From a virus: a DNA stretch of 33,664 nt. The notes below the pieces were generated by a model, which saw only the letters and a list, made by a program, of their open reading frames with translations, was not told the DNA's origin and did no database searches. How positions within the stretch are numbered: position 1 is the first letter of the stretch; each line of letters starts with the position of its first letter. Shown here piece after piece: positions 5,473 to 33,664 of this stretch. The stretch spans positions 1 to 33,664 of IMG/VR virus record IMGVR_UViG_3300043803_000901, one strand, 5' to 3'. The position numbers were made by a program, and so were the translations under genes.

Positions 5473-5473
5473 C

Positions 5474-7355: not shown

Positions 7356-7367
7356 TAGGGCACTGCA

Positions 7368-7625: not shown

Positions 7626-7840
7626 GCGAAATTATCCTATCAGATTCGGTGGATGCACCGGAAGTTGAGCAGCAGGAGCAAGCGTTTCCTGGACGCCAAC
7701 TGAATGTCATGCTGACGTTTACCGAGGAAGGCGTCAAGATTGATGTCAAGAGCAACCTTAGCGCTCTTGAGCAGCTCGGAGCGATTGAGGTATTCAAAGC
7801 ACACCTTCTTAGTTCAGCACTCGGATCACCCAACGAGTGA
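7622..7840 (+). CDS. Small acidic hypothetical protein
   Basis: A 72-residue acidic protein with a beta-hairpin-like middle (LNVMLTFTEEGVKIDVKS) and a helical end. Unrecognised. It is coupled on both sides, overlapping the membrane protein gene by 4 bp and sharing the A of a TGATG with the next gene. Confidence 0.6.
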   Translation: MSEIILSDSVDAPEVEQQEQAFPGRQLNVMLTFTEEGVKIDVKSNLSALEQLGAIEVFKAHLLSSALGSPNE

Positions 7841-13334: not shown

Positions 13335-13349
13335 CGAAAGGAACACACC

Positions 13350-15147: not shown

Positions 15148-15252
15148 TTGACAGTTAGACAGAAAACTGAGTATAGAGCTCGTAATTTTTTGCCTTTTGC
15201 GGTCGATAGATTGTTTGCCATTTACCTGTCTATCAAAGCGGGGAAGATCAGA
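15148..15252. other. Convergent gap between rightward and leftward genes
   Basis: This 105-bp gap receives transcription from both sides. It contains the sequence TAATTTTTTGCC and two short imperfect stem candidates (CAGTT/AACTG, and GATAGA/TCTATC), but no convincing GC-rich hairpin with a T-run. I see no gene in it. Termination here is expected from the layout but is not clearly encoded. Confidence 0.4.
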
Positions 15253-15405
15253 CTACTTCCCTTGGCCACGATAGGGCTTCGTAGCCTTGTTGCTCGGTGT
15301 GGAACTGTGCTTGGTGCGCTTTGATGCGCCTTGGCGTGTCTTCTTAGCCTTACCCGTAATGTGAACGGGGCCCGATCCAGGCCCCGATTTCTTTAGCTTG
15401 TTCAT
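15253..15405 (-). CDS. 50-residue strongly basic protein
   Basis: Read on the minus strand, the frame runs from ATG at 15405 to TAG at 15255-15253. The product starts MNKLKKSGPGSGPVHITGKA and ends SNKATKPYRGQGK. It has many Lys and Arg residues, few hydrophobics and almost no acids. The start overlaps the upstream stop as ATGA, so it is probably translated from the same message as the two larger leftward genes. Its charge suggests DNA or RNA binding or packaging with the genome, as small basic virion proteins do. No family is recognised. Confidence 0.55.
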   Translation of the reverse strand: MNKLKKSGPGSGPVHITGKAKKTRQGASKRTKHSSTPSNKATKPYRGQGK

Positions 15406-15866
15406 TCGTCGTCTTGAGGAACTGTAATTGTTTTCTTGGCAATCTTTTTCAGAGGTTCTAGCCCTCCAAATGTGGTGGCTGTTCCACCTATTTGCTGTTG
15501 TCCGGGTAAAACAAGCTGAGGTATTTCTGCTGACGGAACTTGTGGAGCTCCAATAATTTCACCCGCGGAGTTAATTCCAGCTCTCATATTTCGTCCAGCA
15601 TTTATGTAATCCATTATGTTTTTGAAGTATGGCATTGAGGAACCAAGAGCCTCGCCTGCTTTACCTCCCGGCACACCAACCCCAGCAGCAATCTCTGCCT
15701 GCCTACGCATTGTATCGTATGCTTGCTGGCGATCTTGCATTGCTGCTCTATTAAGATATTCGGCCCATAGGTTTACAGACTGCCTTTGCGCGTCTAGGCG
15801 CTGAGCGCTGCGCTGGTTTCCCATCTCCATTCCACGGAGAGCCGGATGTGGTATGTATGTCGCCAT
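15402..15866 (-). CDS. Q/A-rich helical protein of the leftward island, possible ejection protein
   Basis: A 154-residue protein. The first half is a helix rich in Q, R, A and M (GNQRSAQRLDAQRQSVNLWA, DRQQAYDTMRRQAEIAAG), and the second half is low in structure (P, G, Q) with an acidic C-terminus (PQDDE). It starts 3 bp after the stop of the larger leftward gene and overlaps the small basic gene by 4 bp. Composition and pairing with a glycine-zipper protein fit internal virion (ejection) proteins, but this is an inference from style and order, not from homology. Confidence 0.6.
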   Translation of the reverse strand: MATYIPHPALRGMEMGNQRSAQRLDAQRQSVNLWAEYLNRAAMQDRQQAYDTMRRQAEIAAGVGVPGGKAGEALGSSMPYFKNIMDYINAGRNMRAGINSAGEIIGAPQVPSAEIPQLVLPGQQQIGGTATTFGGLEPLKKIAKKTITVPQDDE

Positions 15867-15869
15867 TAC

Positions 15870-16745
15870 TTAGTCTCTCTTCATTACATAGTTCGGTGTA
15901 TTGTATCCTGTGCTCTTGCTGGGCTGGCGCTGTTGTCTTGCCAAAATTATGTCAATAGCAGATGCAAGGGTTTCTTCGTCGTAAGGCTTATTGTATGCCT
16001 GAATTGCACCTTGACCACCCATGGCCTTAAGAAGAGCAAGTGGGTCTTCTGCTGCACGCATCTGCTGTTCTGCCTGCTGATACCCAGTAATTTGTCCTAG
16101 GTTTGTCCCGCCAAACTTCTGTAATGCAAATGGTTGGAAGTTAGCGAGCTGTTGGGAAAGGTCTTGGTTGCGAATTTGTTCTGCCGCTCCGAATGCTTGT
16201 CCTGCTGTTTGGAATGCCTGCTGCTGCGCCTGTGCCCCCTGCTGCGCCAGCGCATTCATTGCTTGCAGGTTGGACTGTCCAGTGTTGCTTGCTATCCCAG
16301 CCAGTGCTGCCGGGCTTGCACCACCTGCCGCTGCTTGCTGCATGAGGTCTCGGTTCTGATTGCCGAGATTCATGAGTGCCGCGCTGCGTGCCAGGTCTGT
16401 TGTCTGCTGCGCCCCGCCGAGGGCTTGCGATCCTAGAGCTTGTTGTCTTTGCGCAGCAAGGCGTCCCTCCGCTGTCTGCTGTCCAATGAAGCGACGTGCG
16501 GCTTCTGCTGATTCGCGATTCGCTGCCGCACCTTCTGCACCGGTAGATGTAAATGATGCAGCCTCCTGCACCTGCTTGGCCATGTCGATCGGTGTAGTTC
16601 CTCCACCACCGCTAGACAAACCAAACGCATCGCCCATGCCTTGCAGCAATCCAGCACCAATGCCAGCAAAGGGACCTAAGCCTGTCATCGCGCCTAGTCC
16701 AGCGGCTCCACCTTGCAGTAGCAAGTTCTTGAAATCGAATGCCAT
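15870..16745 (-). CDS. Gly/Ala/Gln-rich protein with a hydrophobic N-terminus, candidate DNA-ejection protein
   Basis: A 291-residue protein. Residues 8-42 form a glycine-zipper hydrophobic stretch (GGAAGLGAMTGLGPFAGIGA) that could insert in a membrane. The rest is long Ala/Gln-rich helices (AAANRESAEAARRFIGQQ, ALAQQGAQAQQQAFQTAGQA). This combination, membrane-active glycine-rich start plus Q/A coiled-coil body, is typical of short-tailed phage internal proteins such as T7 gp14 and P22 gp7, which leave the head with the DNA. It starts 36 bp from the divergent terminase gene and leads a three-gene leftward operon. Homology is not shown. Confidence 0.65.
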   Translation of the reverse strand: MAFDFKNLLLQGGAAGLGAMTGLGPFAGIGAGLLQGMGDAFGLSSGGGGTTPIDMAKQVQEAASFTSTGAEGAAANRESAEAARRFIGQQTAEGRLAAQRQQALGSQALGGAQQTTDLARSAALMNLGNQNRDLMQQAAAGGASPAALAGIASNTGQSNLQAMNALAQQGAQAQQQAFQTAGQAFGAAEQIRNQDLSQQLANFQPFALQKFGGTNLGQITGYQQAEQQMRAAEDPLALLKAMGGQGAIQAYNKPYDEETLASAIDIILARQQRQPSKSTGYNTPNYVMKRD

Positions 16746-16781
16746 AGTTACGTTTCTCTTGTTATATGTGTAAATTAGTGC
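16746..16781. promoter_or_regulatory. 36-bp divergent start region
   Basis: The gap separates the start codons of a leftward operon and the rightward packaging operon, so promoters for both must lie here or inside the opposing genes. It is AT-rich (contains TTGTTATATGTGTAAATTAG). No exact TAnnTTTG or clear sigma-70 pair was found on either strand. The leader of each message would be extremely short. Confidence 0.4.
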
Positions 16782-17156
16782 ATGGCAAAAGCAAAACCTA
16801 AAAGGATCGAGGAAGACGACTTACTCGATTTGCACGATGGACCGGTGACGCTGACATCGAGAACAGATAATCAGATTGTTCTAGCTGTCAATCGAATCAT
16901 CGACGGTCTTGATATCGACATTGATGCTTTACAGAAGGGGGCTACGGCAGGAATGCTTCTTTCGATTGATAGGTTGACCGACATCATTGCTAACGCTGCC
17001 GACGACGACATCCGAATTAAGGCAGTGAACAGTATGACGTCGATTGCTAATCACATCATCAAGCGTCGTGAACTTCAGCTCGAAGAAGGGGGATCGATCA
17101 CTGTGAACGTATCGGCGGCTCACGTACCCCCTAGATTGAATGGCGACCAGAAGTAA
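16782..17156 (+). CDS. Putative small terminase subunit
   Basis: A 124-residue, mostly helical protein with a lysine-rich start (AKAKPKRIEEDD), central helices (MLLSIDRLTDIIANAADDD, then SIANHIIKRREL) and a short beta tail. It lies immediately before the large terminase gene, with a 17-bp overlap. Small terminases recognise the packaging site and are poorly conserved, so position and size carry this call. No helix-turn-helix is obvious. Confidence 0.55.
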   Translation: MAKAKPKRIEEDDLLDLHDGPVTLTSRTDNQIVLAVNRIIDGLDIDIDALQKGATAGMLLSIDRLTDIIANAADDDIRIKAVNSMTSIANHIIKRRELQLEEGGSITVNVSAAHVPPRLNGDQK

Positions 17157-18591
17157 AGTCCAAGAGATAAATATATCTGAGCTAATCAAGTTCTCAGGTA
17201 AACAGCAAGAAGTATTTGACTTCATTGGAAAGAAGTCGTACATCGTTGCCGGTGGTGCTCGTGGTGGCGGTAAAACATATCTAGTCGTAGCAATCGCTGT
17301 GCTTTGCGCTATCCTGTTCCCAGGGTTGCGCATTATGATTATCCGTAAGTCGCTCGACGAACTGCGTCAGCAGATTATTGAGAACGAACTACTTAAGCGA
17401 TACTTCCCAGGCAAGCTGTTTACTTGGCGTGAGACAAAGAAGTCTGCCTACTTTGCAAACAAGTCTGTTATCTACTTCAGGTCAATCGAAGAAGATACTG
17501 ACGTATCTAAGTTGCAAGGTATCGAAATCGGCTTGCTTATCCTTGACGAAGGCAATCAGCTTAGCGAGAATGCTATCCGTAGGCTACTCGGTTCTCTTCG
17601 TGACTTTGGAGATAGCGGCTTTAAGCCGACGATGATCATGACGTGTAACCCCGGTGGCGTCTGCGATGGCTTTCTCAAGCGGTACTGGGTTATGCCTGAC
17701 TATGCCAAGTGGGAACCAAAGGAGCTCATCAAGAAGGACGAGTATGCGTATGTACCGTTCGGCGTCTACGACAACCCGCACGCAACGCAGGACTACATAG
17801 ACTACCTGGAAACACTTCCCGACGATCTCCGTGCTCAATGGCTGCTCGGTGCTTGGGATGTCATGAGCGGTGCATTCTTTAGTGAGTGGGACCCACGAGT
17901 ACATATCGTCACTGAGCCCTTTGAGATACCGTCGGACTGGGTGCGTTGGCGTGCCGTTGACCTTGGCTACGGAGTTCACCCTTCGGTCTGCCTCTTTGCG
18001 GCACAGGACCCCGTAAACGGTGTGGTTTATATTTATGACGAGGTGTCTACAAAGGACACCACCGACATCTTCATTGACATGATTTTGGCAGCGAGCGGTG
18101 ACGCAGACTTTGCCGCTACCTACTTTGACCCGAACTCGATGAAGTCGCGTCGTGGTGAGACAGCGGATGCACTGTCCCCCGCTGTGATGTTTGAGCAATC
18201 CGGCATCTATGTGCAGCCAGCTATCAACGAGCGTGTTAACGGGTGGATCAACGTCAAGACGTATCTTTCCGACAATCCGCCGTCGAAGCCTGCAAAGCTC
18301 AAGATATTCCCACACTGCATGGGTCTTATTGAGACGATCCCGTTGCAGCGATACTCCAACAATAGGCCCGACTTGAACACCCGTGGTCAGGATGACTACG
18401 TTGACGCCTTGCGATACCTCCTTAGCCACATCCCCTATGGCTCTACAATCAACGCCGATGGCACGGTTGATAAGGAAGAAAAAAAATTAGGAGCTGACAA
18501 AGATAGGTACGCATTTTTGCAAGGGGCCCAGACTCAATCTAATTACGTTGAGTTCGAGGAACTTGTTGTTTCACGATATGCAATCTACTGA
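17140..18591 (+). CDS. terL: Large terminase subunit (packaging ATPase-nuclease)
   Basis: A 483-residue protein with the full terminase order. The ATPase shows Walker A GGARGGGKTY (~residues 38-47), Walker B LLILDEGNQ (~132-140) and a coupling motif MTCNPGG (~166-173). The RNase H-like nuclease shows WRAVDLGYGVHP (first aspartate ~272), TYFDPNSMKS (~327) and DDYVDALRYL (~417). It pumps and cuts concatemeric DNA at the portal. The length is ordinary for the family. The next gene follows after 6 bp. Confidence 0.95.
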   Translation: MATRSKVQEINISELIKFSGKQQEVFDFIGKKSYIVAGGARGGGKTYLVVAIAVLCAILFPGLRIMIIRKSLDELRQQIIENELLKRYFPGKLFTWRETKKSAYFANKSVIYFRSIEEDTDVSKLQGIEIGLLILDEGNQLSENAIRRLLGSLRDFGDSGFKPTMIMTCNPGGVCDGFLKRYWVMPDYAKWEPKELIKKDEYAYVPFGVYDNPHATQDYIDYLETLPDDLRAQWLLGAWDVMSGAFFSEWDPRVHIVTEPFEIPSDWVRWRAVDLGYGVHPSVCLFAAQDPVNGVVYIYDEVSTKDTTDIFIDMILAASGDADFAATYFDPNSMKSRRGETADALSPAVMFEQSGIYVQPAINERVNGWINVKTYLSDNPPSKPAKLKIFPHCMGLIETIPLQRYSNNRPDLNTRGQDDYVDALRYLLSHIPYGSTINADGTVDKEEKKLGADKDRYAFLQGAQTQSNYVEFEELVVSRYAIY

Positions 18592-18597: not shown

Positions 18598-18855
18598 ATG
18601 GATAAGAAGTCTCTTGGCAGCGACATTACAAAGATTTACAAAATCAAGCCCAAGGGCATGTCGAAGCCTAGCAAGAAAGTCGAAGAGCCTGAGATGGAAG
18701 ACGAAGAAGAGGGCGGCGACCCCGCTGAGATGCTTCGCCAGGCTGCCGATATGATTGACGAAGGCAACATTTCAGAAGCGTATGGAGTCATCGACGAAGC
18801 CGTAGAGGTGTGCAAGGAGATGCACGGCGAAGGCGACGAAGAGGAATATGACTGA
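18598..18855 (+). CDS. Small acidic protein between terminase and portal
   Basis: An 85-residue protein with a lysine-rich first third (DITKIYKIKPKGMSKPSKK), then acidic runs (EMEDEEEGGD) and a helix (EMLRQAADMIDEGNISEAYG). Unrecognised. It overlaps the portal gene by 8 bp. A role as an assembly chaperone is possible from place and charge only. Confidence 0.6.
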   Translation: MDKKSLGSDITKIYKIKPKGMSKPSKKVEEPEMEDEEEGGDPAEMLRQAADMIDEGNISEAYGVIDEAVEVCKEMHGEGDEEEYD

Positions 18856-20839
18856 GTACACCCCGTTTAGAGTTTCGGAGATGCCGTCGAGCGTTATTGC
18901 TCGCGATGTGTTTGCCGAAGAAAACCTGAACGATGTTTATACCCGCATTTGGGAAGACATCGAAACGGCGCACCCGCTCTTTGCGCAGCAGTGGGAGGAG
19001 GCTCGTCGCAACTCTGCGTTTGTGCAGGGAGACCAGTGGGACCAGGATGAGATTGAGGCACACCACCGCCAGAATCGAATCCCGTATGTGTTCGACCAAA
19101 TCAGCCCCAAGGTAAACGCTGTGCTTGGTGTTCACTCGGCACGTCGTGTTGAGGCGCAAGCTATCCCGACGGAGCCTGGTGACGAACCTACTGCATACGT
19201 TGCTAACCGCCTTATCAAGTGGTGTGAGCAAGTCAACCGCATGGATGAGGTGGAGAATGAAGTCTTCTATGACATGATTGTCAAGAAGGCTGGTGCTACG
19301 GTTACCCGCTGGGCATTGACTGACGGTCTTTCGGGTCGTCCGGTAGTTGAGCGCATCCCTATCTACCAACTGATGTGGGACCCGAACTCGGTTGACGTTA
19401 GCCTTTCTGACTCCAAGTGGATGGCTCGCATTCTACCGATTTCAAAACAGGATGCTATTGAGCGTTGGCCTGAGTTTCAAGAAGCTATTCGTAATGCGGG
19501 TGGTCTTGGCAATGAGTCGGTTGTAGACCGATTTGAGGTGATGACGCCGCGTCAGCAATACGTTGCTGGTACTGGACGCTCGCTCAAAGACACCGACCTG
19601 CGCGGTGACATCATTGCTATTGAGCACTTCGAGAAGCTACGTCAGTACATCTACATCGTTGTTGATCAGGTCAGCAATGAGATTACTGAGTATGACGAAC
19701 AGTCATCGGCGCAGAATCACATCGAAGGCTTGCTTCAGCAGTACGCCGAAAACGATGTCAACCTTCTCGATCCTGATGGTAACGACTTGGTGTACATCGT
19801 TACGCTGTCAAAGGACATCGTAATTCAATCGCTCATCTTCGCTGACGAATGTGTAAGCCGAGAAGTAACAGAACTTCCTGACTTTCCATATCAAGTCAGC
19901 TTCTGCTATCATGACGATGGTGAGTATTGGTCGTTTGTAGATCAGCTCATTGACCCGCAGATGTTCCAGAACCGCATGATTTCCGAGCTGGACAACCAGA
20001 TTGGGCGCGGCAATAAGAACATTATGACGGTTATCGAAGCAAAGCTCAAGCGTGGCTTTACTATCGAGAAGCTATCGACAGAGGCATCTAAGGTATCGCC
20101 GAAGATACCTGTGCTTTCACACGACGCTATCAATGTTGTTCCGAATCAGCCAGCGCAGTCAGACTTGGTTCCTGCTATTACGATGGCTATTAGCCACATG
20201 ACGGATGTCGTCGGTGGCCGAAATGCACTGGGCTTGCAGGAAAATGCTGCTGAATCTGGTGCTGCCGTGCGTGCCCGTCAGGAAGCAGCAGGTATGGCGC
20301 GTATGCCGGTGTTTGCGCATATCAACTCGTGGCGTCGCAAGGTGACGGAAATGTGTCTGTGGTACATGCGTAAGTACCTTGCCGCCGACCAGCAGATGCG
20401 CATTATGGGTGAGGATGGCAAGCCTGAGTGGATTATCATTCCCAAGGATGCGTTGGATACGCTGGCAAACGCTCGTATGGATATTGTTATCAACGAAGCT
20501 GTTGATACGGTTACTTCAAAGGAGCGCCAGTTTGTCCAGGTTAAGGAGCTATTCCAGACGATTGGGCCTATGCTTCCCCCTGACATTGTGGTTACGACGC
20601 TTCTTGAATACTCCTCGCTGGAGCAGAATACTAAGGATAAGATTCTTGCTATGATTCCTGCTATCCAGCAGTATCAGCAGCAGCAGGCAGAGGAGCAACG
20701 CATGGCGAAGCTCCAGAAGTCTGTCGAGGATTCGATGCTAAAGAAAGACATGAAGGAGCAAGCTGAGCTCCAAAAGGCTGTCACCGCCGCGCAGCCGAAC
20801 GCAGCACCTACTTTGGGCGGAAATCCATCTACAATGTAG
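18848..20839 (+). CDS. Portal protein, P22-like
   Basis: A 663-residue protein with the profile of P22-type portals. The N-terminal part carries FVQGDQWDQDEIEAHHRQNR, then IPYVFDQISPKVNAVLGVHS and RRVEAQAIPTEPGDE. The wing and stem segments carry NEVFYDMIVKKAGATV, DVSLSDSKWMARI and SFVDQLIDPQMFQNRM. The C-terminal ~90 residues are helical and Q-rich (IQQYQQQQAEEQRMAKLQ), which could be the crown or barrel. It forms the twelve-fold ring through which DNA is packed. Long P22-like portals favour a short-tailed particle. Confidence 0.93.
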   Translation: MTEYTPFRVSEMPSSVIARDVFAEENLNDVYTRIWEDIETAHPLFAQQWEEARRNSAFVQGDQWDQDEIEAHHRQNRIPYVFDQISPKVNAVLGVHSARRVEAQAIPTEPGDEPTAYVANRLIKWCEQVNRMDEVENEVFYDMIVKKAGATVTRWALTDGLSGRPVVERIPIYQLMWDPNSVDVSLSDSKWMARILPISKQDAIERWPEFQEAIRNAGGLGNESVVDRFEVMTPRQQYVAGTGRSLKDTDLRGDIIAIEHFEKLRQYIYIVVDQVSNEITEYDEQSSAQNHIEGLLQQYAENDVNLLDPDGNDLVYIVTLSKDIVIQSLIFADECVSREVTELPDFPYQVSFCYHDDGEYWSFVDQLIDPQMFQNRMISELDNQIGRGNKNIMTVIEAKLKRGFTIEKLSTEASKVSPKIPVLSHDAINVVPNQPAQSDLVPAITMAISHMTDVVGGRNALGLQENAAESGAAVRARQEAAGMARMPVFAHINSWRRKVTEMCLWYMRKYLAADQQMRIMGEDGKPEWIIIPKDALDTLANARMDIVINEAVDTVTSKERQFVQVKELFQTIGPMLPPDIVVTTLLEYSSLEQNTKDKILAMIPAIQQYQQQQAEEQRMAKLQKSVEDSMLKKDMKEQAELQKAVTAAQPNAAPTLGGNPSTM

Positions 20840-21828: not shown

Positions 21829-23118
21829 ATGGCATATCTAAACAGTACACGGCGTGGTATTCGCACTACCCAAACCGTGAACCCGCAGAACATCAAGCCT
21901 GATGTAAGCGAGCAAATCCGTACGCTCTATCCGGAAGCCACGCCGATCATCACGCTGATGGAGAAGATTTCTTCGGCTGGTCGCCCGAAGACGAAGAAGG
22001 TCCAAGTTCGTAAGTATTACGCAACGGACTTCCTCGATCAGATCACAGCCGCAACAGCCGGTATTGCTGGTAACAACGAGACGCGCTTCGGTCGCCTGAC
22101 CGTTGCTCAGTCTTCGCGTCCTGGTATCTCTGGCATGCTGTATCAGCCGCAAGACAAAATCTACATTGTGGCCACCGGCCAGACGGTAGAAGTTGTTATG
22201 ACGCCCGACGCTGCTTACCGCGTCAATGGCACGGAGCTCCAGCTCACGACGGCGCTTGTCAACAACGGTGCATCGCAAACACGTACCGCTGCTGGCAACA
22301 TCATTGTTCGTGTTGTCGAACCTGTGCCGTTTGTCGTTGCAACGACGTCAGACATCTGGCATCTAGGCCGTACGATTTGGGAATCGCAGCCCATTGAGGC
22401 ATCCGGCTACCAGCGTGACGTCGTGTTCGACTACAACTTCGTTGAGCACAAGGAAGCCGTTCTGGAAGTCACGGAAGATGAGCTTGAGTATGTGCAAACG
22501 TACGGCTCGATGAAGGACTTCGACTTCCAAAAGCGCGAAGTCATTGAAGAGTTCAAGAAGCAAATCAACCTGACGTGCTGGTATTCGGAGCGTGCGGTCA
22601 ACTTTGACCAAACGGGTCGTCCGACGCACCACATGCGCGGTGTGCTCAACGCTATCCGCACGAACGTCACGGTCTACGATCCGGCTACGCCTGGTCTTGA
22701 CTTCGAGAACTTGGTCAGTGAGTTCATGTACAAGCAGGCGTTCCTCCACCAAGGCGCAAAGCGCAAGTGGGCATTCGTCGGCGCTGACTTCCTGAACAAC
22801 TTCAACAAGGCTTTCCGTGATTATCGTCGTTCGGACATCAACGTCGCTAAGCAGACGCCTGGCCTGAACATCACGACGTACGACTGGATGGGCTATCAGC
22901 TCGACCTCATTCGCAATGAGACGTTCCGTCTTGGCACGCCTCAATCGCACTGGTGCGCTGTTATTGATCCGGAGCAAATCGACTATCACGTCGCGAAGAA
23001 CTACGATGTTCGTGAATACTCGAACAACAACGAGCGCGACAAGAAGCTGATGATCGAATGGTCCGGCACGATGTCCTTCCACTTTGAGGAGCACCACGCT
23101 CTTCTCCGTACCGCCTAA
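21829..23118 (+). CDS. Major capsid protein
   Basis: A 429-residue protein directly after the scaffold and preceded by AAGGAG at 21815-21820, the strong site expected for a coat gene. The sequence starts with NSTRRGIRTTQTVNPQNIKP and runs through an N-arm, SSAGRPKTKKVQVRKYYATD, DIWHLGRTIWESQPIE, and a spine-helix-like stretch KEAVLEVTEDELEYVQTYGS. It looks like an HK97-fold coat protein of the SU10/P22-distant type. Coding sequence here is the most GC-biased at third positions of the region, fitting high expression. Confidence 0.9.
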   Translation: MAYLNSTRRGIRTTQTVNPQNIKPDVSEQIRTLYPEATPIITLMEKISSAGRPKTKKVQVRKYYATDFLDQITAATAGIAGNNETRFGRLTVAQSSRPGISGMLYQPQDKIYIVATGQTVEVVMTPDAAYRVNGTELQLTTALVNNGASQTRTAAGNIIVRVVEPVPFVVATTSDIWHLGRTIWESQPIEASGYQRDVVFDYNFVEHKEAVLEVTEDELEYVQTYGSMKDFDFQKREVIEEFKKQINLTCWYSERAVNFDQTGRPTHHMRGVLNAIRTNVTVYDPATPGLDFENLVSEFMYKQAFLHQGAKRKWAFVGADFLNNFNKAFRDYRRSDINVAKQTPGLNITTYDWMGYQLDLIRNETFRLGTPQSHWCAVIDPEQIDYHVAKNYDVREYSNNNERDKKLMIEWSGTMSFHFEEHHALLRTA

Positions 23119-23145: not shown

Positions 23146-23745
23146 ATGCGATACATTGCGATTGATGATAGCTTGGCCCTACTTGCCGCCAGTGGCAAGG
23201 CCAAGTACACGTTCAAGAACGGCGTGCTGCAAATCGGTACGGCGACTGGAACGGGCGCTGGCAATGAGATTGTTCCCGATCTAGCAGGAACCGATCTCGA
23301 CTCGAAGATGCAGAACCTGTATCCTGCCGGAGCAAACGCCCTTGAGCAGGTTGGCCTCAACAGCCTGTTCTTCCAGGCTCCTCCGATTATTGCTGCTGGT
23401 ACGCTTGCATCGGGTAGCTACTACACGCTCCTTAGCGGTACGGCTGATCTGACAGGCGCAAACTATGTTGGCAAGTACACGCTCGTGCTTCCCTCGCAGG
23501 TTCCTTCGCTGGACCTCACGGACTTCCCGCTTGGCTTCGTTATCAAGGCTACGGCTGCGATCACGGTTCCGGCTGGCGATGCAACATGGGCTCTGGCACT
23601 GCAACCGCGCTGGTTGGACGATCAGGAGCACAACCTGCGTAGCGAGCACTTCATTGTCAACGAACTCACAACCTTCAAGGATGAGAGCTCGTGGAATGGC
23701 AAGACGTACTCGTCGCGCATCAAGGACCCGAAGTACGTTCGATAA
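23146..23745 (+). CDS. Probable capsid decoration protein
   Basis: A 199-residue protein 27 bp after the coat gene, with AAGGA at 23133-23137. The N-terminal ~75 residues are mixed, and residues ~84-150 form a beta domain (LASGSYYTLLSGTADLTGA, LGFVIKATAAITVPAG, DATWAL). The same domain pattern appears inside a connector-type protein encoded at 28487-29530. Position, size and fold style suggest a head decoration or cement protein. The operon ends straight after it with a strong hairpin. Confidence 0.65.
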   Translation: MRYIAIDDSLALLAASGKAKYTFKNGVLQIGTATGTGAGNEIVPDLAGTDLDSKMQNLYPAGANALEQVGLNSLFFQAPPIIAAGTLASGSYYTLLSGTADLTGANYVGKYTLVLPSQVPSLDLTDFPLGFVIKATAAITVPAGDATWALALQPRWLDDQEHNLRSEHFIVNELTTFKDESSWNGKTYSSRIKDPKYVR

Positions 23746-24732: not shown

Positions 24733-25185
24733 ATGCCTAACGACAAGAACAAGAGAGCAAAAAGTAAAAACCAGCAACCGATGCAGCAAGACGCTACGGC
24801 GATTGATTGGCGTTCCGTTGCTGGGGAGCGTTTAGCTCCACCGCCTCCACCGCCTCCACCGGCTCCACCGGCTCCACCGCTTTATTTAGGGCCCATCTAT
24901 GGCAGGCCAGTTCCTTATCCGCAACCTGAGCCGATGTCTCCCTATGTTGATCCTTTGAGTGCGCAGGTGGAAGACTTTTTAAGTCAAAATTCGCGGTATC
25001 CTCCCTACGTTACACCACCTGAGCTTGAGGACAAGCTCTATCGCTACTATTATCCAAACAAGCGTGGAGAGCAACCTTTTACTGCGCAGGACTCTAGTGA
25101 AGTTGAAGGATTCTTGTCTCGGCTTCTGCCTAAAGATCAAGTGAAAGCACGGACTGAAGCTATTCGATCAATCAGAATTAGATAA
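24733..25185 (+). CDS. Proline-rich hypothetical protein
   Basis: A 150-residue protein. The first 35 residues are basic then neutral, residues ~35-50 are nearly all proline and alanine (APPPPPPPPAPPAPPLYL), and further prolines and tyrosines follow (YGRPVPYPQPEPMSPYVDP). The C-terminal half contains two related short elements, S-x-x-V-E-x-F-L-S-x near 76-85 and near 121-130 (VEDFLSQNSRYPP and VEGFLSRLLPK), suggesting an internal duplication. The proline run rests on a 9-bp tandem repeat at 24841-24876. Unknown role in the virion block. Confidence 0.6.
   Translation: MPNDKNKRAKSKNQQPMQQDATAIDWRSVAGERLAPPPPPPPPAPPAPPLYLGPIYGRPVPYPQPEPMSPYVDPLSAQVEDFLSQNSRYPPYVTPPELEDKLYRYYYPNKRGEQPFTAQDSSEVEGFLSRLLPKDQVKARTEAIRSIRIR
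24841..24876 (+). repeat. 9-bp tandem repeat coding Pro/Ala
   Basis: Four 9-bp units run end to end: two copies of CCGCCTCCA, then two of CCGGCTCCA. One base change turns Pro-Pro-Pro into Pro-Ala-Pro. Copy number could change without a frameshift. Confidence 0.75.
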
Positions 25186-25211
25186 ATGCCAAGGTAAAAT
25201 GCTGTACCCTT

Positions 25212-25580
25212 ATGCCATCTGACCAAAAGAAAAATAAGCAACAGGCCGATACATCGAATCAAGCCGATGGTCGGCCTGCTGGCTTGTCGATGGATGATTG
25301 GATGAAAGTTGCGTCTATGTACGCAAAGAATGCTCAAGACGAAACAGCTCGCTTTGCACGATATGCGCAAGACGGGTATGACCGCTACGCAAACGAAGCG
25401 AGGAACATGTATGGGCGAGCTCAGCGTGTTTATGAAAGTCTTCCTGCGTACGGAGAAGCAGCGGGTCGCCTTGCGTTGGGGGCATCTGAATACTATCCTA
25501 GTCTGACCAACCGCCCATTCGTTGACAAAGCTGTATTTGGTGTGGCGAAGGTGCTTCCATATATGCTCGGCAGGCGTTAG
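25212..25580 (+). CDS. Helical hypothetical protein, Y/A-rich
   Basis: A 122-residue protein with a basic, Q-rich start (QKKNKQQADTSNQADG), a central helix with regularly spaced tyrosines, arginines and alanines (ASMYAKNAQDETARFARYAQ, then GYDRYANEARNMYGRAQRVY), and a hydrophobic C-terminus (AVFGVAKVLPYMLG). An amphipathic helix plus hydrophobic end could interact with membranes, as ejection proteins do. Not recognised. Confidence 0.6.
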   Translation: MPSDQKKNKQQADTSNQADGRPAGLSMDDWMKVASMYAKNAQDETARFARYAQDGYDRYANEARNMYGRAQRVYESLPAYGEAAGRLALGASEYYPSLTNRPFVDKAVFGVAKVLPYMLGRR

Positions 25581-25611: not shown

Positions 25612-26241
25612 ATGCCAACAGCCGCGCAAATGAGATCAAAGGTTCGCTCTATCCTTGACGACGAGCAGTCGTTATGGAAGCAGGGAGCCATGTGGAATGA
25701 TCAGCAGATTGACGCCGCTCTTGATGCCGCTCAGTTTGCATTCATACGCTATGCCTATCTAAAGAAGCAGTGGCATCTTATCTCGGTGTACTTTACGAGT
25801 ATCACCGGGACATCCCAGCTAGGCTTGCCAGCAAACTACATGTTCTATGCGTCTGCGGCAATTCAAGAAGAGCCTGGGCTCCCATTCTATCCAGCAGTGC
25901 TATACATCGGCTGGTCTGGGGCACTATTTACTCCTGACACTACGCGGTATGTAGCGTTCATCCGCAATAACACCGTAGAGTTTCGCGTTGGCAATAACAA
26001 TGCTACGGGTACGCTTTGGTACTACCAGACCCCGACGCGGATTAGCGCAGGAAGCAATCATGTGGAAATGATTGACCCGTGCTACGATGCCATCGTGTAC
26101 CACGCCTGTGCAATCCTGCAACAGAAGGACTGGGGTCAGTGTCAGCGTGCGTTGAAGAGCATGCAAGCTGTCATCATGCCGCTTATGTCTGAGCCTATGG
26201 AGATGTACCCTGTCAACCTCAATCAGAATACAGACGCATGA
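25612..26241 (+). CDS. Connector-type protein, paralogue 1 of 5
   Basis: A 209-residue protein. It begins with a helix pair (MRSKVRSILDDEQSLW, then NDQQIDAALDAAQFAFIRYA) in the layout of small head-tail adaptor proteins such as P22 gp4 and DUF6682-like proteins. A beta core follows (LGLPANYMFYASAAIQE, TGTLWYYQTPTRI), then a C-terminal helix pair (YDAIVYHACAILQQKD, ALKSMQAVIMPL). It would sit below the portal as a ring. It overlaps the next gene by 4 bp (ATGA) and is the first of five similar genes in a row. The fold call is from layout, not from a search. Confidence 0.72.
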   Translation: MPTAAQMRSKVRSILDDEQSLWKQGAMWNDQQIDAALDAAQFAFIRYAYLKKQWHLISVYFTSITGTSQLGLPANYMFYASAAIQEEPGLPFYPAVLYIGWSGALFTPDTTRYVAFIRNNTVEFRVGNNNATGTLWYYQTPTRISAGSNHVEMIDPCYDAIVYHACAILQQKDWGQCQRALKSMQAVIMPLMSEPMEMYPVNLNQNTDA

Positions 26242-26915
26242 CAGTACAGGAAGCCATAGACTTCGTACGCAATTTGCTTGACGAGCCCAAGTATGAATAC
26301 TTCGGAACGAGCACTGATCTCGTGACGGTGTTCAGAGATGCTCTGCGTGAAGCTGCTGCTATCGTTGCTCGCGAGTGCTGGCATCGTGGTGAGAAGGAAG
26401 CATTGCGTCCGCTGTGGGCTGAGGTCACACTGCCGCTCAATGGAAACCAAATGGCAACGATGCCGACACGATTCCTTTTTATTGAGTCTGTTCGGTCGAA
26501 CTACCAGGACAATGCCGATAAGACGTGGCCTCACAAGTACGTCTCACCGGCGGTGTTCTCACGACGTTTGCTTCGTACGCCGTTTGATGGTGCGTCTGGC
26601 AACCAGTTTCAAGGCCGCAACCTTTACATGACGAGGGCTGAGTACACGATTGTTGGAAACAACATCATGGCTACGACGAACCCATTCATGCCCACAGCCA
26701 ACAAGAATGTCCTTGTCAGCTACATTCAGGTTCCAGCAATCTCGGCTACACTGACGAACCAGTTGCCGATGGCGACGTACATTCACCCGTTCATTTGCGA
26801 TAAAGCTGCTGAGATTCTGTATCGCAAGGAGCATCCTGGTGATGACCGTCCGAGCATTGGTGGAATCCTAGATGTTGAGGGTGCGCTGTATCAGGCAATG
26901 CGAGGTCAGCAATGA
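26238..26915 (+). CDS. Connector-type protein, paralogue 2 of 5
   Basis: A 225-residue protein with the same order as its neighbour: helix pair (VQEAIDFVRNLLDEP, TVFRDALREAAAIVARECWH), then a beta core with LPLNGNQMATMPTRFLFIES, a strand NVLVSYIQVPA, and a closing helix pair (HPFICDKAAEILYRKEHPGD, VEGALYQAM). It keeps the 'Y-x-x-x-P' strand and then the helical 'L/A-x-E-I-L' seen in all five proteins. Both junctions are 4-bp overlaps. Confidence 0.72.
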   Translation: MTVQEAIDFVRNLLDEPKYEYFGTSTDLVTVFRDALREAAAIVARECWHRGEKEALRPLWAEVTLPLNGNQMATMPTRFLFIESVRSNYQDNADKTWPHKYVSPAVFSRRLLRTPFDGASGNQFQGRNLYMTRAEYTIVGNNIMATTNPFMPTANKNVLVSYIQVPAISATLTNQLPMATYIHPFICDKAAEILYRKEHPGDDRPSIGGILDVEGALYQAMRGQQ

Positions 26916-27673
26916 TAGCCATATCATCCCTGACCCTTGGCGATGTAATCACTGCGATTGAGATGCGTGCTGGCGACCTCATGACGCCGTACAACTCTGA
27001 CTTTCAAACGCTTGCACAGTACGTGCGCGATGCTCGCCGTGACCTGTTCAACCGCACAAATGCGTTTAAGGAGTGGTCGTATCAGCAAACGGTTCCCGTG
27101 ACGCACTTGGCGGCACTTCCACAGAACTTTATTCGCCCCGTCCGCCTGACAACAAATCTTCCCGGCGCTGACCCTACGCTTGGCGTCCGCTACGAAGCTC
27201 GCATGGCCGACCCTCGTGAGTGGCACAACCTCACCAATATCGTACGGCCTATTAGCTTTACGAAGGGCTGGGTAAAGACTGGTGTGTACATGATCTGGGC
27301 GAACAACACAGACAGTGTGAACTGGGCTGCGAATAACATGGCCATCTGGATATACCCGAACAACCTTCAGGGCCAGCTAGACTATGTTGCATCGTTTGCT
27401 GACGTTGACTTGCTGACGAATCAAAGCCGCGTCTGCGTTCCAATCGAGCTAGAGAACCTGCTTATTGAGCTGGCTCTTAGTAAGTTCTTGGATGACGTAG
27501 CTGATCCACAGCGTATCGTGACGGCAGCACAGGATGTGGCGCAGAAGGTTTATCAGTATCAATCTACGCAGGTGGCGGCGGCACAGGCTACGGCTGTGGC
27601 AGCGCAAGCTATCCCGAACCCAGAGCCAGCATCGGCACGCACTAAACCGATTACACCAGGAGGGCTTCTGTAA
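26912..27673 (+). CDS. Connector-type protein, paralogue 3 of 5
   Basis: A 253-residue protein. The N-terminal helix pair (LGDVITAIEMRAGDLM, TLAQYVRDARRDLFNRT) is followed by a beta core (VPVTHLAALPQNFIRPVRL, NMAIWIYPNNLQGQLDYVAS) and the helix pair IELENLLIELALSKFLDD and TAAQDVAQKVYQYQS. A flexible A/Q/P tail of ~35 residues ends the protein. It couples to its neighbours by ATGA before and TAATG after. It fits the same ring-adaptor family by layout. Confidence 0.72.
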   Translation: MIAISSLTLGDVITAIEMRAGDLMTPYNSDFQTLAQYVRDARRDLFNRTNAFKEWSYQQTVPVTHLAALPQNFIRPVRLTTNLPGADPTLGVRYEARMADPREWHNLTNIVRPISFTKGWVKTGVYMIWANNTDSVNWAANNMAIWIYPNNLQGQLDYVASFADVDLLTNQSRVCVPIELENLLIELALSKFLDDVADPQRIVTAAQDVAQKVYQYQSTQVAAAQATAVAAQAIPNPEPASARTKPITPGGLL

Positions 27674-28485
27674 TGCCATACACAATGGCTACATACGCCA
27701 CCGAAGTGATGCAGCGTCTGAATCGTTACGACGTAGCAAAGTCTGTTGACGTCGGTATGCTGGAGACGGTTATCAATGCCGCTCGTTTCGAGGTTCAGAT
27801 GTCTACGTTGCAAGCTGTGCCTGAGCGATATGCTCGTGTGCATAGGCCGACTGGCGCTCCAACCGTGTCGTGGGTTGACTCTGCTCGCATGTTTGAGTTT
27901 GACCAGACGACGGGCGGAGCTAGAACGATTATCAATCAAGTCTATGTCCATCCTTTGCCTGAAGACTTCATTACCGACGTGACGGTTCAGGTGTATGATG
28001 AGGAGGACTGGTGGCCTGCGCGTGGTGTATCGAAGCGAGACTTGTACACCGTGCTTACGAAGTCATTCTCAAAACCGACGCAGCGTAATCCAATCTACTG
28101 CATCGAGAAGTTTGTTGGCCAGCAGAATGCGCGATTGCTTGTAAGCATTGGTCCAACCGCAGTGCCTGAAAATGCTGTTGAGATATGGTATCTGGCCAAA
28201 CTACCGTGGCTGCAAATCGAGAATGCTACTGGTGCTCCTGACGCTGAGGTGCGCATAGGTTACGACTTAGAAGAACTCGTCGTGTTGATTTCTTGCTTGA
28301 AGATTCTTGAAACGCTTGGTGCTGGCGCTGCTATCCCGCTGATTCGGCAGGACATTGAAATGATGATTCTTGCTGTGCAGCGACAATACGAAGGTGAGAT
28401 TGACCGCAGTCGTTTGCTGGTCGAAGCTCGTGAGTCTGTGATTCCCAATGTACCGATTCCTGACGCTAGTGCCGTAAAGGTGTAA
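27673..28485 (+). CDS. Connector-type protein, paralogue 4 of 5
   Basis: A 270-residue protein with a longer beta core than paralogues 1-3. The helix pair is YATEVMQRLNRYDVAKSV and MLETVINAARFEVQMSTL. The core holds VHPLPEDFITDVTVQVYDEE, NPIYCIEKFVGQQNARLLVS and VEIWYLAKLPWLQ. The closing helix pair is YDLEELVVLISCLKILET and DIEMMILAVQRQYEGEIDR. The stop and start are shared as TAATG with paralogue 3, and the next gene begins 1 bp after its stop. Confidence 0.72.
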   Translation: MPYTMATYATEVMQRLNRYDVAKSVDVGMLETVINAARFEVQMSTLQAVPERYARVHRPTGAPTVSWVDSARMFEFDQTTGGARTIINQVYVHPLPEDFITDVTVQVYDEEDWWPARGVSKRDLYTVLTKSFSKPTQRNPIYCIEKFVGQQNARLLVSIGPTAVPENAVEIWYLAKLPWLQIENATGAPDAEVRIGYDLEELVVLISCLKILETLGAGAAIPLIRQDIEMMILAVQRQYEGEIDRSRLLVEARESVIPNVPIPDASAVKV

Positions 28486-28486
28486 G

Positions 28487-29530
28487 ATGACAACTTGGAA
28501 AGAACTATACGACGATCTCCTGCAAGAGCTTGCTCTGTACCAGGAAGAAATCAAGATGACGCCGCAACAAGGCATGCGCTACCTGACGCGAGCGTTGTCA
28601 GAGTTCCAGCGTCTTACGGCTATTGCTGAGGACACGAAGGTGATTATCACCGCTGGTAATCTTACGTCTATCGCGACAACGTATCCTGCTGGCAATGACA
28701 TCCTTGAAGTCGTAGAGCTGTTGGATGCCAATGGATACATCATGCTGAATGTTTCGTACCAGCAATTCACTGACATCATCGAGCGTGCTGACGGCGGTCA
28801 GATAGGTTTCAACGAGAACCCTGCTCACTACACGCGACTAAGGAAGAGGCCGACGTATAATCAGGAACGGTGGGAGCTAGGCCCCGATCGTGGCATGGCT
28901 CGCATCTACACGATCTTTGCTGACCAGCTCATGCGTGCTCCGCTTACCGGCGCATTGCTCTCTGCACCGCTTGCAGCAAACGGAACGAATCAACTGTTGG
29001 CGGGGAATATGTACCGCCTTGTCTCAGGAGCGGCGGCGCTGAATGCAGGAACATACGTCAACAACCATACAATCGTAGCACCTGTACCAGCTCCGCCTAA
29101 CCTGGGCGCTATACCCGTTGGTACGGTTATCCGTATAACGACGACATTCACTCCGCCGAACACGGCAGGCGTATCGTGGCAGCAAGTGACAGCAAGCAAC
29201 GATCCGTACTTCGTTATTCGCTACCGTCCGCACTACGACATCTTCTCGACGGTATCTCCGCAGTGGGCGAACTGGCAAACGGAAGCGAACTTCGAGACGA
29301 ACTTTGCCACGCAGACACCTCCGACACAGGTTGTGAAGTTTGCCCCTGCGTTCGTGTCGTACGCAGCAGGCCAGTACCTGCGTTCACAGAATGTACTCTC
29401 CGGTCAGCAACCGTTGTGGCAGCAGTATGACCAGGAGTTCCGCGCATACGTCGAGCAGGCGATCACGCTGAAGCCCGTCCAGTCTCACGAGCTTTCGTCC
29501 CCGTACAACATTAGTCCCTATAGCAACTGA
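28487..29530 (+). CDS. Connector-type protein, paralogue 5 of 5, with an inserted beta domain
   Basis: A 347-residue protein. The opening helices (WKELYDDLLQELALYQEE, QGMRYLTRALSEFQRLTAIA), the core strands, and the closing helices (VKFAPAFVSYAAGQYLRSQN, QYDQEFRAYVEQAI) match the series. Between core strands, residues ~165-237 hold an extra domain (LLAGNMYRLVSGAAALNAGT, VGTVIRITTTFTPPNT) that resembles a domain in the decoration-type protein encoded at 23146-23745. It ends in TGATG, coupling it to the giant nozzle-like gene. It is the largest of the five. Confidence 0.7.
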   Translation: MTTWKELYDDLLQELALYQEEIKMTPQQGMRYLTRALSEFQRLTAIAEDTKVIITAGNLTSIATTYPAGNDILEVVELLDANGYIMLNVSYQQFTDIIERADGGQIGFNENPAHYTRLRKRPTYNQERWELGPDRGMARIYTIFADQLMRAPLTGALLSAPLAANGTNQLLAGNMYRLVSGAAALNAGTYVNNHTIVAPVPAPPNLGAIPVGTVIRITTTFTPPNTAGVSWQQVTASNDPYFVIRYRPHYDIFSTVSPQWANWQTEANFETNFATQTPPTQVVKFAPAFVSYAAGQYLRSQNVLSGQQPLWQQYDQEFRAYVEQAITLKPVQSHELSSPYNISPYSN

Positions 29531-32500
29531 TGGAATACCAAAAGACTAACGTCAATGCCTTCTTGGGTCTGGATAACAACCAGCGCCCTGAACTCATTAA
29601 GGATCAAGAGGCATCGGATATTGAGAACCTTCGCTTTGACAAGCTAGGCTATCTCATCAACCGCAATGGAGTGCAGCTTCATTCTCTAAATTCCGATCGC
29701 TTTGTCAGTACCGTTGACGGCATAACGACGACTGGCATCCTTTGGTCTATTGGCACAATGGGTCTGACGGAGTACGTCATCGAGAAACCTTGGGGCATCG
29801 GTAGTGGCGAGGCGGCTGTGCATCCGTACGACGATGCTACGTTGAATGCGTTTTCGCCAACAGCACCCAATACGCCGAAGTTTACAGATCGGTTCATGGT
29901 GTACGCAGTTCGCATCCCTGCTACGAAGCCTATGTTGCCGTCTCCATACACATCTAGGAGAACCGACAACAGGAACAGCAGCAATGTAAACTCTAGTGGT
30001 ATAGCTACGGACATGGCTAACCAGTACACATGGCGCTACAAAGCTGCGTACATCTTGGTTCCGTTGACTGGTCCGACCGGCTTCCGTGATTCGTTTGCAT
30101 TTGCACCGAATGGCAACATGTTGAATGCCGCCGCAAGCTATCAGCCTGTTGACGGTACGCTTCCTACCCTGCTTGCAACGATGGGGTCGCGCAGCATTGT
30201 TCGCGCTGACGATAAACCAAAGAAGTTGCAGATATACGCACCTGCCCGGTGGCTTGGTGTTCACAACGAGTTTGCTGACTCCGGTATTCCAAAGGACCTA
30301 AACTGGATTGAGCACTACGTCTCGATGCAGCAGTACCGTGAGTCAGTTGTCATCTCTGACATGACTAACGGCGACATGTATCTCGTCGATGAGTACATGG
30401 AGTCGGAGTACCAGGATACGAAGAAGCATCGGTTTACCTTGCGTGAGAACTCGCTTGCGCACTTCGACATAGATGATGTTGTCGTTGACTTTGGTATTAC
30501 TGGGTTCAATAACGGTGTTAAAGCACCGATGGCTCTATACAAGTTCTACTTAAAGCGTTCTCGGTTTAATGCGACTGAGGATAATTACAAAGGATTCTAT
30601 TCTGTGGTAGACAAAAGTCCAGCATTCAATGACCTGGAAAATGGACTAGTCTACGATTGGCACATGAATCAAAGCATTCCTCTAGGGTCTGGATTTATAC
30701 GATCTGAGTATTGGCAAGGTGAAACTGATTTAGGAAAGCTACAGGGCTGTGGGATACTTGTTGATTGGACAGCGAATTATACATTCTCTTCCACCACAAA
30801 TGCCACGGAATATGATGATCTTTTCCTTCCTTTAACCTTGCAAAATCCAGACATAAATGAAGATGACCAGGTAGCTGCCGATGTTTACAGGTGGGATGAT
30901 TTTGAAATTGAATACTACCCGTGTAGTGGAAAATTAATTGGCAGTGTTTTCTTAACTGCATTCGACAGAACTTGGAATAAGTCTTCTTCATCAAGCACTA
31001 AACTAATAAAACTAAAAACTAAAACTGGTTTAGAACAGGATGTGCCGCTTGGGGTGTGGCGTTACCGCTTTGTTTGGTATATGGGTAACGGTGAGTACAG
31101 TGCCCCTTCAGCAGAACTTGTTGTTCCGGACATGATGTTTAGTGGTATGCCGGACAATGATATAACACTGTCATTCCCATCGTACAAGCGTCCTATTGGC
31201 ATAGCTAATAGCAAAGAGTCTACGCAAACAAACGTCGCACTTTCTTCGACAGGGTTTATAAATCAAGCCACTGGCATGCAAGGCGGTTTAATGTTCAAAG
31301 CTGACGGAACATTAAGCAAGTATGGAGAAAACTTCCTCAAGATTAAACGTGCCATATTCGATTCTTCGCACGTTTTTGCAGCAAGGTATTCAAGTACAAA
31401 TGGTACATCTTGGCCTGGAAACTGGACTACTGAATCTTTACTTGCCAAAGGTCAGCTTGGGGTTTGCTGTACACTTTTTTTTCAAAACGACTATGCTGTT
31501 TTGGAAGGAGTATTTGCAGAAACACTACATGCGCTTTTAGACCTCAATGATTCTGGTTCATATGGAAAGGCAAACTCATATTCTGCAAATACGATATCGT
31601 TGAGCATACCACTATTTGCTCCATCTTTTGTAACCAATGAAAATCAGGTATCGTACAACAGTTTGTTTACAGAATATGGTTGCCTAAGAACAGCTTACCA
31701 GAATGTTGCTGCAAATTCTAGTTCCTCTCTTTACGATATACAATACCCTGGCTACCAGATAGTATTTGAAGGTGCTCAAAGATACGGAGTGGATTCTGAC
31801 TACGATGAAAACGATGGTAAGGGTTGGGTTAAATCCGATGTCGTTAGCTCTGGGAAAAGTATATGGTTTAATATCGTCCCGTTTAAGGGTGGAATTGTTA
31901 ATAACGCCACTCATCCTCCAACGTCCCCTTTGACATATACCGTAGAACGCAATAATTACCCAGACGATGAACTTGTAGCTACTCCGGCTGGTCCTAGGTA
32001 TTACGAATTTAGGAACATGACTGTTGTTCGTGGCGTAAACTCCCAATCAGATAGGCTTCTTTATGTTAAACCTAACTTACCGTCTGAGGTGATTAGTAGG
32101 ATCGTCCTACCTGGTTCTGGTGAGATACAACTCTGCTCTATTGGCGACTCTGGGACATGGGTTACCGAACAAGAGTTTTACCCTAATTACGCAGAAAACC
32201 TCTTAGACTATAATGATGTTAGGGCGTTTACTGATGTAACAACAATAAATCCATCTTTATTTGTTCACGATTATCCCTTCTATAATAGTCGGAATAGTGT
32301 TGGCAACTACATAAGGGCTAACACTGTAAGCAATAAGATTGTGTTAAACAACCTCAATGTTTTTGTGTCATCTGTTGGTGAACGCCTAACAATCCCTGAG
32401 CAACTTTCGATGTATGTCCCAGCCTCGCTACTGTTCGAGGCTCCACATATCAAGCTGGTTATTCCGACAAACCGTATTCCACGTCGTGCTCGACAGCTCC

Positions 32501-33664
32501 TCATCTTCCGCACACGCGCATCGCATGACAACGCATGGCAACCACACGACTATGGTTTGGTAAAGACAATCGACATTAAGCGTGACGCGAATGGCAGCCC
32601 TGTCGATTATGCAAACAACCAACTGTCATTTCTCGATGACGTAAAAAGCTCTGAGCTTGATTACTCGTATGCACTGAATGACTACGATGGATTTACGGAG
32701 CCTATAAAATCTCGCTTTTGCCTACCATTGAACGAGCGCGTGTTCTACGCTAACATCAAAGAGTCGTATCGTCCACATACGCCTCGCACCGCTCTTGATG
32801 TTGTGAATACGCATGCACCGGACACCACGGTAACGGCTCATAGAAACATTGATTTCGGTTCTCAAACAGAGATGGCTCGACTATGGTCGTACAAACTGTT
32901 TACAGCGACGCAAACCGGTGACGCAACAATCACGAACATCACGAACCAGTACCTTTACTACTTTATTGCATACAATGACCAAGCCCGTTCATTTTCGCTG
33001 GCATCATGCTCCGGTGAAATAAACCGTGGGGCATCATTTGCTACCGACAAGAATAAGCCTGTGTTCTTCTGCATGCCTTCGGCGTATGATCCATCGGTAG
33101 AGCAGGCAAACATCTACCGTTTGCAGCTTAGCGCACCCATCGAGAAGATAACACTGACAACAAATCGTGCCTCTAATATCATCCAGGCTGGTCGAGTGTA
33201 CTACGTGGTCCAGGGTGTCGTCGAATACAATGGCACGGTGTACTATCCGAACGATGTGATTCAAACGTACTACGGAAATGATGTCGGATACGACGCAACG
33301 TACGTCAATAGGTTTGTCAATTACTTCGAGATTCTTAGCCCAGCAACAAATGACCGTGGAAACGCAGGTTCATACTGCCAGCCAGTCTTATACAATGTTA
33401 CGAGCTGCTTTGATGGAGCTGCTGGGCCTAGCTACATTGAGAAGATTGGAACAATCAAGCCCGAAGACGAAGGCATCTTCTACGACAACGACCTGCCGTC
33501 ACTTGGCCGTCTGCCGCTGAAACAGATATTCCAGAACGAAGATGTCATGCCTGCTGGTCTTCGCTGGTCTGAGCCATATCAGTCCAATAAGATCAAGCTC
33601 GCATCGCTTATGGAGGTGCGCTCTGGTGATGGCGACCAGGTTACTGGCCTAGCCATGCTATATG
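29530..33664 (+). CDS. Giant tail nozzle-like protein, 5' part (runs off the window)
   Basis: From ATG 29530, the frame is open to the window end (at least 1378 residues). I translated the frame without finding a stop. The start, NVNAFLGLDNNQRPELIKDQ followed by EASDIENLRFDKLGYLINRN, matches the opening of tail nozzle or stabilising proteins of short-tailed phages (P22 gp10-like), where a 'G-x-x-x-x-x-p-x-x-l-x-x-x-e-a-x-d-x-x-N' pattern is common. Those proteins are usually 450-800 residues, so this one is far longer. It is beta-rich and carries repeated 'W/Y-R-Y-x-F-V-W-Y-x-G-N-G-E-Y-S-A-P-S' type strands near residue 510. Residues ~330-935 are coded by AT-rich DNA unlike both ends. Confidence 0.75.
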   Translation, partial: MEYQKTNVNAFLGLDNNQRPELIKDQEASDIENLRFDKLGYLINRNGVQLHSLNSDRFVSTVDGITTTGILWSIGTMGLTEYVIEKPWGIGSGEAAVHPYDDATLNAFSPTAPNTPKFTDRFMVYAVRIPATKPMLPSPYTSRRTDNRNSSNVNSSGIATDMANQYTWRYKAAYILVPLTGPTGFRDSFAFAPNGNMLNAAASYQPVDGTLPTLLATMGSRSIVRADDKPKKLQIYAPARWLGVHNEFADSGIPKDLNWIEHYVSMQQYRESVVISDMTNGDMYLVDEYMESEYQDTKKHRFTLRENSLAHFDIDDVVVDFGITGFNNGVKAPMALYKFYLKRSRFNATEDNYKGFYSVVDKSPAFNDLENGLVYDWHMNQSIPLGSGFIRSEYWQGETDLGKLQGCGILVDWTANYTFSSTTNATEYDDLFLPLTLQNPDINEDDQVAADVYRWDDFEIEYYPCSGKLIGSVFLTAFDRTWNKSSSSSTKLIKLKTKTGLEQDVPLGVWRYRFVWYMGNGEYSAPSAELVVPDMMFSGMPDNDITLSFPSYKRPIGIANSKESTQTNVALSSTGFINQATGMQGGLMFKADGTLSKYGENFLKIKRAIFDSSHVFAARYSSTNGTSWPGNWTTESLLAKGQLGVCCTLFFQNDYAVLEGVFAETLHALLDLNDSGSYGKANSYSANTISLSIPLFAPSFVTNENQVSYNSLFTEYGCLRTAYQNVAANSSSSLYDIQYPGYQIVFEGAQRYGVDSDYDENDGKGWVKSDVVSSGKSIWFNIVPFKGGIVNNATHPPTSPLTYTVERNNYPDDELVATPAGPRYYEFRNMTVVRGVNSQSDRLLYVKPNLPSEVISRIVLPGSGEIQLCSIGDSGTWVTEQEFYPNYAENLLDYNDVRAFTDVTTINPSLFVHDYPFYNSRNSVGNYIRANTVSNKIVLNNLNVFVSSVGERLTIPEQLSMYVPASLLFEAPHIKLVIPTNRIPRRARQLLIFRTRASHDNAWQPHDYGLVKTIDIKRDANGSPVDYANNQLSFLDDVKSSELDYSYALNDYDGFTEPIKSRFCLPLNERVFYANIKESYRPHTPRTALDVVNTHAPDTTVTAHRNIDFGSQTEMARLWSYKLFTATQTGDATITNITNQYLYYFIAYNDQARSFSLASCSGEINRGASFATDKNKPVFFCMPSAYDPSVEQANIYRLQLSAPIEKITLTTNRASNIIQAGRVYYVVQGVVEYNGTVYYPNDVIQTYYGNDVGYDATYVNRFVNYFEILSPATNDRGNAGSYCQPVLYNVTSCFDGAAGPSYIEKIGTIKPEDEGIFYDNDLPSLGRLPLKQIFQNEDVMPAGLRWSEPYQSNKIKLASLMEVRSGDGDQVTGLAMLY

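Follow-up and report, generated by a model that had tools for sequence, protein, structure and literature searches.

The tail barrel of phage crAss001 is 23 nm long. It stacks five dodecameric rings, and the four paralogues that supply them, of 15–31% identity, build separate homomeric rings (PMC10172136). Podoviruses other than crAss001 are said to have one ring, and phage 13:2, a crassvirus outgroup, has a single ring gene (PMC10172136). In SU10, a single adaptor protein forms one dodecamer (PMC9509320).

Here we analyze a 33.7-kb piece of DNA from an uncultured virus, called the window throughout, in which five consecutive genes (g1 to g5) precede a large nozzle gene. An earlier note, made from the letters alone, had read these genes as the outcome of repeated adaptor duplication. 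That interpretation is supported by profile links among g1–g4, by folds, and by the presence of the row in 13 other contigs. The note did not name the crassvirus tail barrel, which is the main precedent, so the idea is less novel than it implied.

The crassvirus rings R1–R4 (crAss001 gp43, gp40, gp35, and gp34) resemble this locus in that several ring paralogues of low identity lie between capsid and muzzle genes, have the same fold as our g4 model, and are followed after the last ring gene by a very large nozzle/muzzle gene. In crAss001, however, there are four ring genes, partly separated, whereas the five of the window are contiguous and, in most lineages, closely coupled. The SU10 adaptor gp11 (Kuravirus; PF24175) is the closest sequence family to g1–g3 and, weakly, to one g4 homologue; the window capsid also belongs to the SU10_MCP family, but SU10 has a single adaptor protein. 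Paracoccus phage vB_PmaP_KLEP18-1, Rhizobium phage RHph_Y1_10, and Microcystis phage Mae-JY35, three cultured phages that share the P22-type portal, carry one adaptor-sized gene followed by a nozzle-sized one of ~490 aa, whose PHROG family is the same where compared, in contrast to five genes and a nozzle of >1600 aa.

Results

The five genes and their surroundings

The structural genes all lie on the plus strand, in the order terminase, portal, scaffold-like ORF, capsid, five small genes, g1 to g5, and the large ORF (Table 1). Read from the window DNA, the five ORFs (209, 225, 253, 270, and 347 residues) and their junctions are as the earlier note described them: ATGA at 26238 and at 26912, TAATG at 27671, TAA-G-ATG with its 1-bp gap at 28483, and TGATG at 29528. 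Such coupled junctions suggest linked synthesis of the five proteins. All five genes are under purifying selection, with pN of 0.15–0.30 and pS of 0.75–0.85 against two relatives.

Table 1. Positions of the structural features discussed (window coordinates)
Feature	Position	Strand	Evidence or remark
Terminase	17140-18591	+	Terminase_3 7.4e-14
Portal protein	18848..20839	+	Pfam P22_portal 9.8e-66; phrog_156 3.3e-68
Major capsid protein (MCP)	21829..23118	+	Pfam SU10_MCP 6.4e-20
p199, directly after capsid gene	23146..23745	+	residues 80-142 are the domain also inserted in g5
g1, putative ring/adaptor paralogue 1, 209 aa	25612..26241	+	Pfam SU10_adaptor 2.9e-7; hhalign to g2 96.6%
g2, putative ring/adaptor paralogue 2, 225 aa	26238..26915	+	hhalign to g1 96.6%, g3 94.8%; 1/5 homologues SU10_adaptor 1.1e-7
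g3, putative ring/adaptor paralogue 3, 253 aa	26912..27673	+	Pfam SU10_adaptor 1.2e-8; hhalign to g4 99.5%
g4, putative ring/adaptor paralogue 4, 270 aa	27673..28485	+	AlphaFold2 model pLDDT 80; crAss001 tail-barrel chains best by Foldseek
g5, probable ring/adaptor paralogue 5, 347 aa, with inserted domain	28487..29530	+	low-confidence model; hhalign to g3 31% only
Inserted domain of g5, ~residues 153-236 (~84 aa)	28943..29194	+	absent from g5 of other lineages; homologous to p199
Nozzle/muzzle-like gene, leaves window (1378 aa here)	29530..33663	+	full-length homologues match phrog_3287

Outside the row, two small genes (150 and 122 aa; 24733–25580) lie between p149 and g1. They are also present in L001/L003 (relatives are denoted by L numbers), and no homologues of them were found in L004, L005, L007, or L008. 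The ORF at 25212–25580 gave a Pertussis_S1 match of 0.0014, under the curated Pfam cut-off; we take it as chance and make no toxin claim. Farther upstream, the ORF at 222–2321 (699 aa) has DUF6371 (1.2e-17) and an AAA_25 ATPase domain, with RecT and YqaJ recombination genes downstream at 4723–6496. The virus is one of bacteria, and one relative, L107 (CAKZLY010000032.1), falls in the same bin as an uncultured Ignavibacteria genome, which hints weakly at the host group.

The row in relatives

Each of the 13 other contigs spanning this locus contains the same genes, g1 to g5, in the same order. One of these, contig 3300044641_003209, was read from L008 and L021, its two overlapping ends. The ends of this 66456-base contig share 131 bases within g3 at 99.2% (blastn), with no exact terminal overlap, so the genome of this relative is probably complete and assembled as a circle of ~66.3 kb. 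Close relatives have 58–81% of each protein in common, and across the contigs most junctions overlap or touch. Each of g1–g5 has its own orthologues in all lineages, which are best matches of one another, and in most lineages the C-terminus of g5 is a conserved aromatic-proline tail. The five profiles have no match in any of the other P22-portal loci compared, and the cultured phages of INPHARED gave no match for the capsids of three lineages, for g3, or for the nozzle.

Two lineages contain additional genes: L107 has one between g1 and g2 (236 aa, 13432–14142), and L025 has two between g5 and the nozzle (368 and 105 aa; 14661–16114), none with a Pfam match. These could be hub or fiber-docking proteins.

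Relationship of the five proteins to one another

The low pairwise identity of which the earlier note warned is real: taken alone, the window proteins align no better than shuffled sequence (z -1.6 to 2.4), and hhalign with close relatives only gave no signal among the five. The profiles were enlarged with homologues of seven divergent lineages (L024, L025, L026/L027, L106, L107, L109, and L110), gathered by wider portal, capsid, g4, and g5 searches, and the signal grew as they came in, as real homology would give. The enlarged profiles link g1 to g2 (96.6%), g2 to g3 (94.8%), and g3 to g4 (99.5%, over 216 columns at 18% identity), with weaker links of g1 to g3 (45%), g2 to g4 (41%), and g3 to g5 (31% over 182 columns). 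The control families MCP, p199, and p154 have no link of >5% to any of the five. Moreover, the g3 HMM recovers g4 from every lineage (4e-7 to 6e-18), and in most lineages the g4 model recovers g3. These comparisons show shared ancestry for g1–g4, visible only with profiles and not from the window alone.

The paralogy that had been claimed for all five proteins is thus borne out by profile–profile comparison for g1–g4; g5 has no firm sequence link and is probably related to the others by fold, as judged from a low-confidence model. We regard this as weak counter-evidence because most crAss001 ring pairs, which are structural paralogues, were missed as well in our positive control; that control used single sequences and detected R3–R4 only. 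Because orthologues are mutual best matches across lineages, the duplications, dated in this way, are older than the split of the lineages. As a whole, the observation of five coupled, related genes is confirmed.

Adaptor family and fold

The 27-bit cut-off of SU10_adaptor (PF24175) is passed by g1 (31.6 bits) and g3 (36 bits). The window g2 has no match to this family, which one of five g2 homologues matches at 1.1e-7 (bit score not listed). For g4, one of four homologues matches weakly, at 0.0015, and neither g5 nor any of its homologues matches. The window g2, g4, and g5 have no Pfam match of their own; in the ring row, a PHROG scan of the window proteins returned only weak phrog_399 matches, for g2 (0.031) and g3 (0.0058); and a profile search of PDB sequences with each of g1–g5 gave no meaningful match to any solved ring protein.

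Structure predictions were made for g4 and g5, and g1–g3 were judged from sequence. For the g4 model (AlphaFold2, pLDDT 80), the best Foldseek matches are crAss001 tail-barrel chains (6e-7), then the SU10 and cyanophage A4 adaptors. In VIA alignments its Z score is 13.3 to cyanophage A4 (rmsd 3.9, 202 residues aligned), 12.4 to crAss001, and 12.1 to the SU10 adaptor, and phage adaptors or connectors fill the 27 best places (Z 13.3 to 8.3). In a viral library, the g4 model matches, among others, proteins from uncultured crass-like phages and from ProJPt-Bp1, a crassvirus of the termite gut. The g5 model has a pLDDT of 52 overall, low in the middle and ~66–85 across most of the helix pairs at the two termini. 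Phage connectors make up all of its best 30 structural matches (Z 11.8 to 4.2; 10.2 to the SU10 adaptor), and unrelated folds appear only lower. For both models, solved phage adaptors, crAss001 ring chains among them, score clearly ahead of unrelated folds.

The layout that the earlier note had read from the letters, an N-terminal helix pair, a beta core, and a C-terminal helix pair, is visible in both models. This fold, together with a position between capsid and nozzle genes, is what marks podophage adaptors. A match of all five to the adaptor family or fold was reached in unequal degree: it stands for g1 and g3 by Pfam and for g4 by a confident model, through one of five homologues for g2, and for g5 through a low-confidence model whose best matches are all connectors. 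Taken together, these results place g1–g4 among adaptors by family or by fold, and g5 probably so. The LP step ascribed to all five proteins is present in the window g1–g4 (LP-x-[ND]-[FY]-type; MPTRF in g2) but absent from the window g5; a similar step occurs in g5 of the relatives L106 and L026 (LPTDVLRIIE and IPVDYLRIIQ).

Nozzle gene and placement of the lineage

By its family, the large ORF after g5 is a nozzle gene, because its full-length homologues match phrog_3287 (2.6e-14, 1.5e-10, and 5.9e-7). In KLEP18-1 and RHph_Y1_10, the gene that follows the adaptor and is assigned to the nozzle by annotation or by position belongs to this family. Its product is 1607–1819 aa in relatives (1801 aa in L021) versus the much shorter form of the cultured phages. 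The nozzle loci of L021 and L106 lie at 2361–7766 and 11591–17050. The phrog_3287 match is confined towards the C-terminal part of the protein, and the enlargement is comparable to that of the crassvirus muzzle.

Membership in the order Crassvirales was considered and rejected on capsid, portal, ring, and nozzle families. The window MCP matches SU10_MCP only, whereas crAss001 matches Crass_capsid; the portal and nozzle belong to phrog_156 and phrog_3287, whereas the best families for crAss001 are phrog_6547 and phrog_28748. The window g1–g5 have no match to Pfam CrAss_Ring_1, CrAss_Ring_2, or CrAss_Ring_3_4 at E up to 10, and homologues of g2, g4, and g5 have none to these families at E up to 1; crAss001 proteins match them strongly.

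A domain common to g5 and p199

The window g5 contains an insert homologous to residues 80–142 of p199 (blastp 3e-9 in the window, 9e-13 in L004). It is present in g5 of the window, L004, L005, and L021 and absent from g5 of L007, L024, L025, L026, and L106. The common domain, of ~60–85 residues, occupies 23383–23571 in the p199 gene. The N-terminal MRYI start of p199 is kept in L025, L026, and L106. Because L007 has the domain in p199 and lacks it in g5, the simplest reading of these sequences is that g5 acquired it within the window's clade. As a guess, it might be a common docking surface for a decoration or fiber protein.

Discussion

With good confidence, we interpret the row as five anciently duplicated adaptors, each most likely forming its own dodecameric ring, stacked as an extended barrel between portal and nozzle. 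Several paralogous ring genes in one virus, one mark of a multi-ring barrel, are present here. An ancient head-to-tail adaptor gene would have been duplicated to give five ring genes; each of the five proteins would then form a dodecameric ring of its own, one ring per gene; and the five rings would stack between the P22-type portal and the very large nozzle to extend the tail barrel, to ~23 nm if the length of the five-ring crAss001 barrel is a guide. Conservation alone does not establish that the product of a gene is built into the virion as a ring, and other arrangements need to be weighed.

The alternative that fares best, although we think it unlikely, is that all five proteins derive from adaptors and only some form rings, the others serving as neck, stopper, or fiber-docking collar, in a barrel of fewer than five rings. 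It draws on g5, which stands apart in sequence, carries the extra domain common to p199, and has structural matches that include T4 gp13-type and phage 812 neck proteins. Nevertheless, g5 has the connector layout, its counterparts in other lineages are without the extra domain, and podophage ring adaptors match it best. It is considerably less probable that the paralogues form mixed, hetero-oligomeric rings or act as alternative adaptors. Mixed rings, too, would need the linked synthesis that the coupled junctions suggest, but the crAss001 paralogues build separate rings (PMC10172136), and the separate orthologues of each gene in all lineages suggest distinct positions. That no more than one or two are adaptors, the others being unrelated tail proteins, as the missing pairwise similarity within the window and the missing Pfam matches of its g2, g4, and g5 might imply, is highly improbable given the profile and fold results for g2, g4, and g5, and is largely refuted for g1–g4.

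If there are indeed five stacked rings, their order may be suggested by analogy. In crAss001, the first ring genes encode the rings nearest the muzzle and the last those nearest the portal, with the muzzle gene next, and because of this order we place g5 at the portal and g1 at the nozzle, an assignment that we favor only slightly over others. In this position g5, with its aromatic-proline tail, may bind the portal.

The architecture itself is already known from crAss001; what is new is a multi-ring gene set outside the crassviruses, in a lineage that combines a P22-type portal with an SU10-type capsid. Because phage 13:2, the crassvirus outgroup, has one ring gene, there are hints that the ring expansions in crassviruses and in the window lineage were separate. 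More tentatively, and less likely than not, these phages could have a gene-counted tail with an origin independent of crassviruses. Five different rings would form a fixed stack, the number of ring genes rather than a tape measure would set its length, and in the window's clade the fifth ring would have taken the p199 domain to serve as one more docking site. Five ring genes are kept in order over wide divergence in a lineage whose capsid, portal, and nozzle families are different. Within the open-access literature (multi-ring podophages could be published elsewhere), this lineage would be a second, larger natural case of short-tail lengthening by gene duplication, and it bears on how each ring recognizes its neighbors and on whether such barrels arose more than once.
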